Notes under the pieces: generated by a model
Databases searched by the model: none
What the model was told of the DNA's origin: nothing
Seen by the model: only the letters and a program-made list of their open reading frames with translations
Assembly (NCBI GenBank): GCA_902825965.1
Contig: CADEDA010000011.1
Span: forward strand, 7,535-56,081
Direction of reading: 5' to 3'
From: an uncultured Gemmatimonadota bacterium
GTDB lineage: Bacteria; Gemmatimonadota; Gemmatimonadetes; Gemmatimonadales; Gemmatimonadaceae
DNA: 48,547 nt
Program-made: the position numbers and the translations under genes
Shown here: positions 24,082 to 48,547 of the stretch, in pieces
Layout: every line of letters starts with the position of its first letter
Numbering within the stretch: position 1 is the first letter of the stretch

Positions 24082-25008
24082 TCAGGTTCCGGTTGCGCCG
24101 GTGCGCAACCGCGTCAGGAGCTGCGTGCGCTGGAGCGTGCGATCGAGCATCGCACGGTCCTCGTCGGTCCGGCCGGAACGCTGGACCAGTTGCACGAGGA
24201 CGGTCTCCAGATCCTCCAGGAGTTTCCGGCGCACAGGGTCATCGCCGGCGGGGGAGTCCAACAGCAGGCGCGTGTTGGTGAGGATGTCACGCGCCCATTT
24301 GCCAGTGAGGGAATCCATCATCGCGTCGGCAGGCGTCGCCGCGATCACGGCGACCAGCGCCTCGGCGCGGGAGAGGTGTTGATCGGATGCGACCCGATAG
24401 GTCGCGTTGCCGGGGTTGCCGCTCGCGGTGGCGCTCGCGGTGGCAATCGCGCCGGCGGCGCGCGGTTGGCTGCGGTTACGGTCGTCCGCGGCCGGCGTAC
24501 GCACCACTGCGACGGACGGCCGCACATCCGTGGTCCCGGTGGCGACCGTGGCGCCAGCCGGTGTGGCCGCCGCGGCCGGGGAGCCCGTGCCGACCGCGTC
24601 CTGCGAACGATCGGGCCGCGCGGCGGCGTCGGTGGTGGCGCCGGTCGCACCCGCTGCGGAGGCCACCGGCGCACCCAGTTCGGCCTGCGGCCGCACGTCC
24701 GGCCGCACGTCCGGCCGCACGTCCGGCCACACGAAGCGTCCCACCGCGAGTCCGATCAGCAGCGTAGCGGCCATGCCCACCCAGGGCGAGAACCGCAGGG
24801 TCGGACGTGTGGGTGTGGTGCTAGCGGCGGCCGAGCCCGCCGACGGTCCCACCGTCCGCAAGGGCGACGCGGCACGTGCGGCGGCGCGGGCCTTCGCGAT
24901 CTCGGCCCACATCGCGTCGCGCGGCACCTCCTCGAGCGGCGCGTGGTACGACCGCGCCTCGCGCTGGAGGAACTGCTCGAACTTGTCGGTCGTCGGTTCG
25001 TCGCTCAC
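24082..25008 (-). CDS. putative membrane-bound anti-sigma factor
   Basis: 308 residues. A soluble N-terminus (1-65: DKFEQFLQREARSYHAPLEEVPRDAMWAEI...) is followed by one transmembrane helix (WVGMAATLLIGLAVGRFVW), an Ala/Pro/Thr-rich linker and a helical C-terminal domain (LSRAEALVAVIAATPADAMM to the end). The topology is that of an anti-sigma factor, with a cytosolic head and an outer sensor part. No HxxxCxxC zinc motif is present. GTG at 25008 forms a GTGA overlap with the sigma stop and has GGGGAG 8 nt upstream; GTG at 25017 is the alternative. The anti-sigma role is inferred from position and topology only. Confidence 0.7.
   Translation of the reverse strand: MSDEPTTDKFEQFLQREARSYHAPLEEVPRDAMWAEIAKARAAARAASPLRTVGPSAGSAAASTTPTRPTLRFSPWVGMAATLLIGLAVGRFVWPDVRPDVRPDVRPQAELGAPVASAAGATGATTDAAARPDRSQDAVGTGSPAAAATPAGATVATGTTDVRPSVAVVRTPAADDRNRSQPRAAGAIATASATASGNPGNATYRVASDQHLSRAEALVAVIAATPADAMMDSLTGKWARDILTNTRLLLDSPAGDDPVRRKLLEDLETVLVQLVQRSGRTDEDRAMLDRTLQRTQLLTRLRTGATGT
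24691..24726. repeat. 12-bp tandem repeat, three units
   Basis: CCGCACGTCCGG repeated three times; on the minus strand it encodes DVRPDVRPDVRP just after the transmembrane helix of the putative anti-sigma factor. Confidence 0.9.
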
Positions 25009-46226: not shown

Positions 46227-47203
46227 GTACCGACCGCCGGCCCCCGCGGGAGATCGACCTCGCCCGGGTGCGCACCGTGCCGATCGCCGTCCGCCCCAAC
46301 AAGGTGCGCGCCGAGGAGTTCGCCTCCGCACCCGGGACCGACCGCTCGTTCGCGGCCTTCCTGAGTGCCCTGCCCGACGTGCTCAAGGCACAGGACTTCG
46401 ACAAGGTCGTGGACGCCGTGGTCCACGCAGCCAGGAAGCGGAAGGGCGTGATCGTCATGCTCGGCGGGCACGTCGTGAAGACCGGCATCGGCCCCATCCT
46501 CGTCGACCTCATGCGCCGCGGCATCGTGACGCACCTGGCGATGAACGGTTCCGCCGCGATCCACGATTACGAGATCGCCCGATTCGGCGGCACCTCGGAG
46601 GACGTCGCCGTGGGCCTCAAGGATGGCTCCTTCGGCATGGCCGAGGAGACGGGGCGCGGCCTGAACGAGGCCTTCGTGACGGGCCAGTCGCACGGCTGGG
46701 GAATGGGGGAATCCGTGGCCCGCGCCCTGGAGGCGCTCCCGAGCCTCGCACACCCCGAGCACTCGATCCTGCTCGCCGCGCACCGGCAGTGGATCCCGGT
46801 CACGGTGCACGCCGCACTCGGAGCCGAGATCATCCATCAGCATCCCGCCGCGAACGGTGCCGCCATCGGCGACACCAGCCATCGCGACTTCCGGCGACTC
46901 GCCGCGTCCTGCGAGTCGCTGCATCAGGGCGGCGTGGTGCTCAACCTCGGCAGCGCCGTGATCATGCCCGAGGTGTTCCTCAAGGCCCTCACCGTGGCGC
47001 GCAACGTCAACGGCGGCAAGCCCACCGACTTCACCACCGCCGACTTCGACATGACGCGGCACTATCGTCCGCGGGTCAACGTCGTCCAGCGCCCGGTGCT
47101 GTCCGGGGGCGCGGGCTACGAGATCACCGGGCACCACGAGTTGATGATCCCGCTGCTGGGCTGGGCGGTGGTCGAACGCCTCGGCGCCGACCCGACGGAC
47201 TGA
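46223..47203 (+). CDS. deoxyhypusine synthase-like protein, probable CTG start
   Basis: 326 residues if translation begins at CTG 46223, which overlaps the DUF3108 stop as CTGA. The sequence resembles deoxyhypusine synthase: VIVMLGGHVVKTGIGPILVD contains Lys86 where human DHS has its catalytic Lys in GGGVVKHH, followed by AMNGSAAIHDYEIARFGGTSED. Other conserved-looking parts are AALGAEIIHQHPAANGAAIGD and LNLGSAVIMPEVFLKAL. DHS transfers an aminobutyl group from spermidine to a lysine of eIF5A, which bacteria lack, so the substrate is unknown. N-terminal residues REIDLARVRTVPIAVRPNKV precede any ATG and look conserved. GTG 46268 is the conservative alternative start. Confidence 0.75.
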   Translation: MSTDRRPPREIDLARVRTVPIAVRPNKVRAEEFASAPGTDRSFAAFLSALPDVLKAQDFDKVVDAVVHAARKRKGVIVMLGGHVVKTGIGPILVDLMRRGIVTHLAMNGSAAIHDYEIARFGGTSEDVAVGLKDGSFGMAEETGRGLNEAFVTGQSHGWGMGESVARALEALPSLAHPEHSILLAAHRQWIPVTVHAALGAEIIHQHPAANGAAIGDTSHRDFRRLAASCESLHQGGVVLNLGSAVIMPEVFLKALTVARNVNGGKPTDFTTADFDMTRHYRPRVNVVQRPVLSGGAGYEITGHHELMIPLLGWAVVERLGADPTD

Positions 47204-47229: not shown

Positions 47230-47267
47230 AAGGGGGCGTGACGGAGTGTTCTCCGTCACGCCCCCTT
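47230..47267. terminator. bidirectional terminator hairpin
   Basis: A perfect 17-bp stem (47230-47246 with 47251-47267) with loop TGTT, between two convergent genes. Core GGGGGCGTGACGGAG resembles the stem at 32166. No T-run. Confidence 0.75.
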
Positions 47268-47282: not shown

Positions 47283-47501
47283 TCACTCGCCGCCGAACTT
47301 GCTCCGCAGGTCCTTGGCCGTCTCGGGGGCGAAGATCCGCAGGAGGATGTAGACCATCACACCGACGATCAGCACCGGGATGGCCATGCCGAGCAGCCAG
47401 AAGATCAGTCCGAACAACCCGCCGAGGATCCCGAAGAGGATCTTGAGGGCGAAGAGCCCGGCGAAGGCGAGCAGTCCGATGATGAAGATGGTGCGGAGCA
47501 T
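47283..47501 (-). CDS. small membrane protein
   Basis: 72 residues from ATG 47501, which has AGGA 7 nt upstream; an ATG at 47543 would add 14 polar residues without a ribosome-binding site. Two long hydrophobic stretches (residues about 2-20 and 22-52, Leu/Ile/Phe/Gly-rich, including GILGGLFGLIFWLLGMAIPVLIVGVMVYILLRIF) are followed by a charged tail PETAKDLRSKFGGE. I know no function. It is divergent from lipA and shares with it the intergenic palindrome at 47623-47663. Confidence 0.7.
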   Translation of the reverse strand: MLRTIFIIGLLAFAGLFALKILFGILGGLFGLIFWLLGMAIPVLIVGVMVYILLRIFAPETAKDLRSKFGGE

Positions 47502-47622
47502 GGCGCGGTCCTGTTGGGGAGTTGCTGTCCGTACGATTGCCACGGATGGCCGGTTTCGGAAGGGCGCGCGGGACGAGAGGCCGGGTCCGGGGCGGGGGGA
47601 GGTCGCGCGTGCCTCGCGAGGA

Positions 47623-47663
47623 GTATGTTAACCTTCTAAATCAACAAAAGATGGTTACCATAC
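47623..47663. promoter_or_regulatory. AT-rich 15+11+15 inverted repeat upstream of lipA
   Basis: GTATGTTAACCTTCT (47623-47637) and AGATGGTTACCATAC (47649-47663) are inverted repeats matching at 13 of 15 positions, with an 11-bp A-rich centre. The segment is about one-third GC in a roughly 70% GC region. It lies 71 bp before lipA and about 120 bp before the divergent membrane-protein gene, a classical operator position. Confidence 0.65.
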
Positions 47664-47687
47664 CTACCCCCTCGTCCGACCCTGCTG

Positions 47688-47693
47688 TATCCT
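47688..47693 (+). promoter_or_regulatory. possible -10 box of lipA
   Basis: TATCCT, 25 bp downstream of the palindrome, whose right arm would then cover or abut the -35 region. A similar TTATCCT lies upstream of the helicase-like gene at about 19410. Confidence 0.35.
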
Positions 47694-47733: not shown

Positions 47734-48547
47734 ATGTCCGAAGTGCTCTACCAGATCATGGGCCGCCACCGGGCGGAGCCACTCCCGGAGCGCAAGCCCT
47801 CCTGGCTCAAGGTCAAGGCGCCCGGCGGGAAGAACTACCTGCACCTCAAGCAGATGATGCGCGAACTCGACCTCCACACGGTCTGCGAGGAAGCGCACTG
47901 CCCCAACGTCGGCGAGTGCTGGGAGCACGGCACCGCCACCTTCATGATCCTCGGCGACGTCTGCACGCGGAACTGCGCATACTGCGCGGTCGCCCACGGC
48001 CGGCCCCCCAAGTTCGATGCGGCCGAGCCCGGACGCGTGGCCGAGGCCGCGCAGAAGATGAACCTGCGCCACCTCGTGATCACGAGCGTCGACCGCGACG
48101 ACCTCCCGGACTTCGGCGCCTGGGCATTCGCCGAGACGATCCGGCAGGTACACGAAGCCGTCCCGGGCTGCTCGGTCGAGGTGCTGGTCCCGGATTTCCA
48201 GGGCAACGAGGACTCCATCCGGACCGTGCTCGAGGCGCGCCCCGAGATCTACAACCACAACACCGAGACGGTGCCGCGCCTCTATAAGAAGGCGCGCCCG
48301 GGCGGTCGCTACGAACGCGTGCTCGAGATCTTCCGCATGTCCAAGCGCATCGCGCCGGACATCCCCACGAAGACCGGCATCATCCTCGGCATGGGTGAGA
48401 CCAACGAGGAGGTCCTGAAGACCATGCGCGAACTGCGCGAGGTGGACGTCGACATCCTCACGCTGGGCCAGTACCTGCGCCCCTCGGACGATCACATCAA
48501 GCTCGATCGCTACGTCACGCCCGACGAGTTCACGATGTTCCGCGTCG
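47734..48547 (+). CDS. lipA: lipoyl synthase (partial, cut by window end)
   Basis: Radical-SAM enzyme that inserts two sulphurs into octanoyl groups on carrier proteins such as GcvH. 271 residues are visible of about 300. The auxiliary cluster cysteines are Cys51, Cys56 and Cys62 (CEEAHCPNVGEC); the SAM cluster is CTRNCAYC (Cys77, Cys81, Cys84). Later motifs VTSVDRDDLPDFGA, NHNTETVPRLY and TKTGIILGMGE are all as in LipA. ATG 47734 has GAGG 7 nt upstream. The C-terminal Arg-Ser-Ser-Tyr region lies beyond the window. Confidence 0.97.
   Translation, partial: MSEVLYQIMGRHRAEPLPERKPSWLKVKAPGGKNYLHLKQMMRELDLHTVCEEAHCPNVGECWEHGTATFMILGDVCTRNCAYCAVAHGRPPKFDAAEPGRVAEAAQKMNLRHLVITSVDRDDLPDFGAWAFAETIRQVHEAVPGCSVEVLVPDFQGNEDSIRTVLEARPEIYNHNTETVPRLYKKARPGGRYERVLEIFRMSKRIAPDIPTKTGIILGMGETNEEVLKTMRELREVDVDILTLGQYLRPSDDHIKLDRYVTPDEFTMFRV

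Follow-up and report, generated by a model that had tools for sequence, protein, structure and literature searches.

A conserved AT-rich palindrome upstream of lipA as a putative activator operator of the pyruvate dehydrogenase/lipoylation operon in Gemmatimonadaceae

The region in front of the lipoyl synthase gene lipA of an uncultured Gemmatimonadota bacterium contains an AT-rich inverted repeat, the core of which is, judging from its conservation among relatives, a real control site kept family-wide in the Gemmatimonadaceae. The element is interpreted here as the DNA operator of a dedicated, probably dimeric activator for the operon lipA-pdhABC-lpd-lipB, a reading given a probability of about 0.72. 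Binding of a protein, activation, co-transcription of the genes, the signal sensed and the start of transcription are features that we infer from the sequence. The repeat and its flanking genes are located as follows in the window, i.e., the whole stretch of 48,547 nucleotides that was analysed:

47623-47663, no strand assigned: AT-rich imperfect inverted repeat of 41 bp, read directly from the sequence
47283-47543, minus strand: divergent small membrane-protein gene, without a family match
47734-48547, plus strand: lipA (lipoyl synthase), first gene of its cluster, identified by family match and truncated by the window end

The repeat has the sequence GTATGTTAACCTTCT / AAATCAACAAA / AGATGGTTACCATAC, with arms that pair at 13 of 15 positions around a centre of 11 nt. 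Its GC fraction is 0.317 compared with 0.710 for the whole window, and among all 41-mers of the window it is the lowest in GC, with none elsewhere equally low. The original prediction of a 41-bp AT-rich inverted repeat with 13/15 arms, situated between lipA and a membrane-protein gene, proved exact with respect to both the repeat and its place between these genes. The whole window possesses 12 inverted repeats with arms matching at 13/15 or better and a gap of 3-20 nt, where 40 dinucleotide shuffles of the window gave a mean of 4.45 (range 1-8). No inverted repeat with arms of at least 13/15 and a GC fraction of 0.42 or lower was present in the 40 shuffled windows, and an AT-rich repeat of such strength is therefore unexpected by chance. 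Elsewhere in the window, at 24686-24726, there are overlapping GC-rich repeats based on CACGTCCGGCCG, which give rise to two strong inverted repeats.

The lipA gene begins with an ATG at 47734 and its product scores 347.9 bits against TIGR00510 (cut-off 310.25), with the nearest named LipA relatives being from Gemmatimonadaceae/Gemmatimonadota assemblies. It leads a cluster with the order lipA-pdhA-pdhB-pdhC-lpd-lipB; beyond the window end, the source genome (G000; 4.07 Mb in 73 contigs) encodes E1-alpha (PF00676), E1-beta, E2, E3 and LipB. The lipoyl, E3-binding and catalytic domains of E2 were confirmed on the G013 copy, and the other proteins of the cluster on G000. An equal or compatible gene order was called in G011, G013, G018 and G020 as well as in the outgroup genomes G054 and G037, while in G015 and G004 lipA, lpd and lipB are present and the pdh stretch was misread by simple gene calling. 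There is also a run of N within lipA of G000 (L002, approximately 2314-2411, just beyond the window), flanked by a duplicate of about 57 bp, and the 402-aa LipA reading frame in this genome is an artefact of the scaffold gap.

The genes upstream of lipA form a few recurring clusters (three loci without a lipA call were left out of the clustering), including GSU2086-like proteins, a small membrane protein, a thiO-like oxidoreductase and others. No transcription factor was recognised among these clusters of upstream neighbours, nor by eye among the called genes downstream of lipA. In the window, the GSU2086-family protein of unknown function (46268-47203; NF052581, 395.8 bits) also lies upstream of lipA in many relatives. 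A perfect 17-bp inverted repeat, AAGGGGGCGTGACGGAG/CTCCGTCACGCCCCCTT, with a 4-nt loop sits between two convergent genes at 47230-47267. It has the appearance of a bidirectional terminator; a scan for consensus terminators, which requires a T run, gave no listing for these positions.

Comparison of lipA upstream regions resolved a conserved unit that is smaller than the 41-bp repeat, as the outer GTATG/CATAC extension varies among relatives:

47629-47657, no strand assigned: conserved core TAACC-N19-GGTTA, a putative operator, from the phylogenetic footprint
47629-47639, no strand assigned: upstream half-site TAACCTTCTAA, from column counts
47647-47657, no strand assigned: downstream half-site AAAGATGGTTA, from column counts

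In the window TAACC occupies 47629-47633 and GGTTA 47653-47657, separated by 19 nt. The consensus over relatives is TAACCnTCAAA-n7-TTWGAYGGTTA, with A/T flanks that are also conserved. LipA was detected in 59 of the 61 genomes searched, and a first upstream set comprised 50 lipA regions, 33 from the same family and 17 from outgroup families (17 of 24 outgroup lipA loci entered the comparison). The core was found with at least 12/18 matches in 27 of these 50 regions, 22 with N19 spacing and five with N18. The 22 N19 sites listed all belong to the Gemmatimonadaceae; all 22 retain the GTTA of GGTTA, and 18 of them the G that opens it. At the order level, the core was absent from 17/17 outgroup lipA upstream regions examined, the best matches there (12/18 or lower) having a different spacing or a score below 12.

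A larger set of 80 named lipA loci provided 78 that were usable, with L123 and L126 left out on account of upstream sequence shorter than 120 nt. With a matrix of 20 sites, trained partly on the same species as the loci tested, 49 of the 78 loci scored above the 99th percentile of shuffled upstream regions, compared with 0/78 reversed sequences. In all 49 site-bearing loci the site is the best-scoring position of the entire locus on both strands. In a held-out test, a matrix made from 15 sites of the window's own genus was applied to the 68 loci outside that genus (the 10 genus loci being excluded), and 38 of them exceeded the 99th percentile, 34 also the 99.9th, while no reversed control passed (0/68). 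The other 30 of the 68 failed, seven of these retaining a degenerate GGTTA followed by a correctly spaced -10. As the lipA loci are related by descent, these counts represent non-independent events. The original prediction, which called the repeat probably an operator, had staked this on conservation of the arms before orthologous lipA genes. The core is indeed kept across the family, which supports a putative operator.

A search of 16 genomes located 10 copies of the exact core, TAACC-N18/19-GGTTA, eight of which precede lipA; a reversed control pattern was likewise present at 10 places in these genomes. The remaining two exact cores lie within open coding frames (TetR-like and methyltransferase-like by eye) and are not accompanied by a -10. 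A sequence-only site model, built from 20 of these sites and so recovering those by construction, gave a match at E<=5 in 19 of 37 genomes, the best match always being upstream of lipA, with few further match places. Weaker matches in G000, G001 and G016, three members of the genus, fall within hemW, in the 3′ portion of its coding sequence and some 130-135 nt ahead of hrcA (L101 3065-3091, L102 2232-2262 and L103 2204-2233); as these are in a coding frame they were set aside and are taken as a coding coincidence. Additional weak matches were seen in G007 and G021. From these searches the site appears to be essentially specific to lipA. This bears on the possibility of an intrinsic, AT-rich UP-like element, contacted by the RNA polymerase alpha subunit without a separate regulator. 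Such an element would account for the window's lowest-GC 41-mer lying roughly at -43 to -73 relative to the inferred start and for the conserved A/T flanks. However, the most constrained bases include the inverted TAACC/GGTTA pair at N18/19, beyond the A-tracts, and the element is near-unique to lipA, whereas an UP element should recur; this explanation is considered quite unlikely.

Promoter-like elements follow the core on the lipA side:

47664-47669, plus strand: -35-like CTACCC, degenerate (conserved as CTnnC), from column counts over 49 loci
47688-47693, plus strand: -10-like TATCCT, 30 nt after GGTTA, with TANNNT at 29-31 nt in 49/49 loci

The offset of TANNNT from GGTTA was counted in 41 of the 49 site-bearing loci (eight with less than 50 nt downstream were left out) and is 29 nt in eight, 30 nt in 18 and 31 nt in 15, where shuffles of the same 41 loci gave at most four TANNNT at any single offset. 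TANNNT also occurs 29-31 nt after GGTTA in all 38 loci passing the held-out test, and the -10-like consensus over site-bearing loci is TA[GTC][AC]TT. Across loci, 21 to 130 nt separate the -10 from lipA, and the site thus keeps its place relative to the promoter rather than to the start of the gene. The -35 place is filled by CTnnC at a spacing of 18 nt; over the 49 loci, C is found 24 nt before the -10 start in 33 and the T that follows in 39, with C at -20 in 36. The fit of this region to TTGACA is poor, with the best match averaging 2.68/6 against 2.18/6 in shuffled sequence. The earlier placement of the repeat just upstream of the lipA -35 holds, as 6 nt separate the end of the core from the degenerate CTACCC and 30 nt from TATCCT.

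In bacterial promoters, a palindrome fixed directly ahead of a weak -35 corresponds to the layout of an activator site. The lipA region appears to share this layout, having a conserved palindrome, a fixed distance to the -10 downstream and a weak -35, and it is the locking of the palindrome just upstream of the weak -35 that suggests an activator. A repressor that acts from a position immediately upstream to block the promoter, e.g., through DNA bending or contact with RNA polymerase, was also considered. Long palindromes are often repressor sites, and the accessible text of two reports describes lipA as a target of PdhR in Escherichia coli (PMC3265435) and repression of lipBA by cAMP-CRP in Shewanella (PMC4398509). 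Nevertheless, the site stops some 30 nt short of the -10, covering neither this hexamer nor the start, and its fixed place relative to the -10 together with the degenerate -35 fits polymerase contact better, making a repressor unlikely.

The site could alternatively serve the divergent membrane-protein gene, since it lies within the divergent gap and a membrane gene is the nearest upstream in 31 of the 49 site-bearing loci. This is thought very improbable, as the fixed-distance -10 points toward lipA and in 12 of the 49 site-bearing loci a thiO-like gene, not the membrane gene, adjoins lipA. This thiO-like gene (cluster 3) is directly upstream of lipA in 15/29 low-scoring loci against the 12/49 that bear the site, a difference which suggests that the site is lost where transcription of the upstream gene can reach lipA.

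An inverted repeat may also act at the RNA level, as a hairpin of a leader or riboswitch in the lipA transcript. Folding of the window sequence gives -12.9 kcal/mol (z -2.77), but the repeat precedes the promoter-like hexamer, Rfam has no match over the repeat and covariation is absent. Base-pair counts on 20 sites were at the level of shuffled sequence, both for paired cells (83.0% versus 81.2%) and for covariation (0.148 versus 0.129), and on these grounds an RNA hairpin was rejected as scarcely probable.

Candidate regulator families were judged by their absence from near-complete genomes that bear the site, bearing in mind that such profile scans can miss divergent members. Profile scans found no match to GntR, the family of PdhR, in site-bearing G010, G012 and G013 (98-100% complete), to the BirA-type HTH_11 domain in G001, G010, G012 and G013, to LysR in G001, G004, G009, G012, G013 and G015, or to LytTR in G009, G010, G012, G013 and G035. 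GntR/PdhR, BirA, LysR and LytTR were consequently rejected, being undetected in several near-complete site-bearing genomes. Rrf2 matches are present in 30/30 genomes, including four family members lacking the site (G018, G020, G022 and G033), and Crp-type matches at E<=0.001 in 30/30, site-lacking ones included; the main Crp protein of site-lacking G033 looks the same as in site-bearing genomes. The motif was absent before the Rrf2 and Crp genes inspected (12 loci each). Both families are present in site-bearing genomes, and neither is lost together with the site. The GntR, HTH_11, LysR, LytTR, Rrf2 and Crp scans identified no regulator of the site; the original prediction had proposed looking for one that co-occurs with the motif.

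Known systems resemble the lipA site only in part. The type 2 site of IscR/Rrf2 is a W-rich CC..GG palindrome with a CC-to-GG distance of 13. The lipA site is likewise a W-rich CC..GG palindrome, and Rrf2 is matched in every genome scanned; it differs in having a distance of 18/19, in the equal presence of the Rrf2 gene where the site is lacking and in the lack of a copy ahead of the inspected Rrf2 genes. PdhR acts as a repressor and recognises a short box. In E. coli this GntR-family protein controls lipA together with the PDH genes, according to the accessible text of PMC3265435, a likeness offset by the N18/19 spacing, the activator-like geometry and the undetected GntR match in G010, G012 and G013. 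The Shewanella lipBA promoter also carries a transcription factor palindrome at a lipoate synthesis gene, its CRP site being given as AAGTGTGATCTATCTTACATTT in the accessible portion of PMC4398509; here the half-sites are TAACC/GGTTA and much further apart, and a Crp-type gene is also present in site-lacking G033. By analogy, the PdhR and CRP cases, as far as the accessible texts go (PMC3265435, PMC4398509), make it plausible that lipA/PDH would be a target of control, via other proteins and other sites.

The inverted AACC...GGTT core, with its long spacer, also recalls operators of BirA, the biotin/lipoate protein ligase-like regulator, the signal for which is TTGTAAACC-[N14/15]-GGTTTACAA in the accessible text of PMC545781. 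A BirA-type operator is held to be highly improbable and was rejected, as the lipA site has N18/19 instead of N14/15, lacks the outer TTGT/ACAA and precedes other target genes, and HTH_11 is undetected in four site-bearing genomes; the doubt already voiced about BirA, that the spacing is too long, is borne out by the published signal, as far as the accessible text gives it (PMC545781).

In the favoured reading, i.e., a dedicated activator, the protein would grip TAACCnTCAAA and TTWGAnGGTTA as a pair of inverted half-sites, with the centres of TAACC and GGTTA about 23-24 bp apart and located approximately 69 and 45 bp ahead of the inferred transcription start. Bound directly upstream of the degenerate -35 (CTnnC), it would bring RNA polymerase to the -10 hexamer TATCCT. 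As one activator is proposed to switch the whole operon, the subunits of pyruvate dehydrogenase would be made jointly with LipB for octanoylation and LipA for lipoylation. More tentatively, the regulator might stand outside the families known for PDH/lipoate control, perhaps as a new type gripping half-sites 23-24 bp apart on essentially one operon. It is a comparably doubtful suggestion that such a regulator couples the supply of PDH to that of the lipoyl cofactor and is retained down to genome sizes of about 1.8-2.3 Mb.

A literature search, with subscription papers largely outside its scope, returned no paper on this site or on regulation of this operon in Gemmatimonadota; the accessible part of an ecogenomic survey of the phylum mentions pyruvate dehydrogenase and not its regulation (PMC10581226). 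Judged from sequence comparison, the site is most likely ordinary in kind, as an operator, and new as a member, with nearly one target in the PDH/lipoylation operon of the Gemmatimonadaceae. Its interest comes mainly from the usual PDH/lipoate regulators being undetected in site-bearing genomes. If the reading is true, the site would be usable as bait to find its protein. It would also make this a compact example, limited to one operon, of a switch shared between enzyme subunits and the assembly of their cofactor, and would offer a control point open to testing where carbon enters the TCA cycle, in a phylum that is abundant yet little studied.
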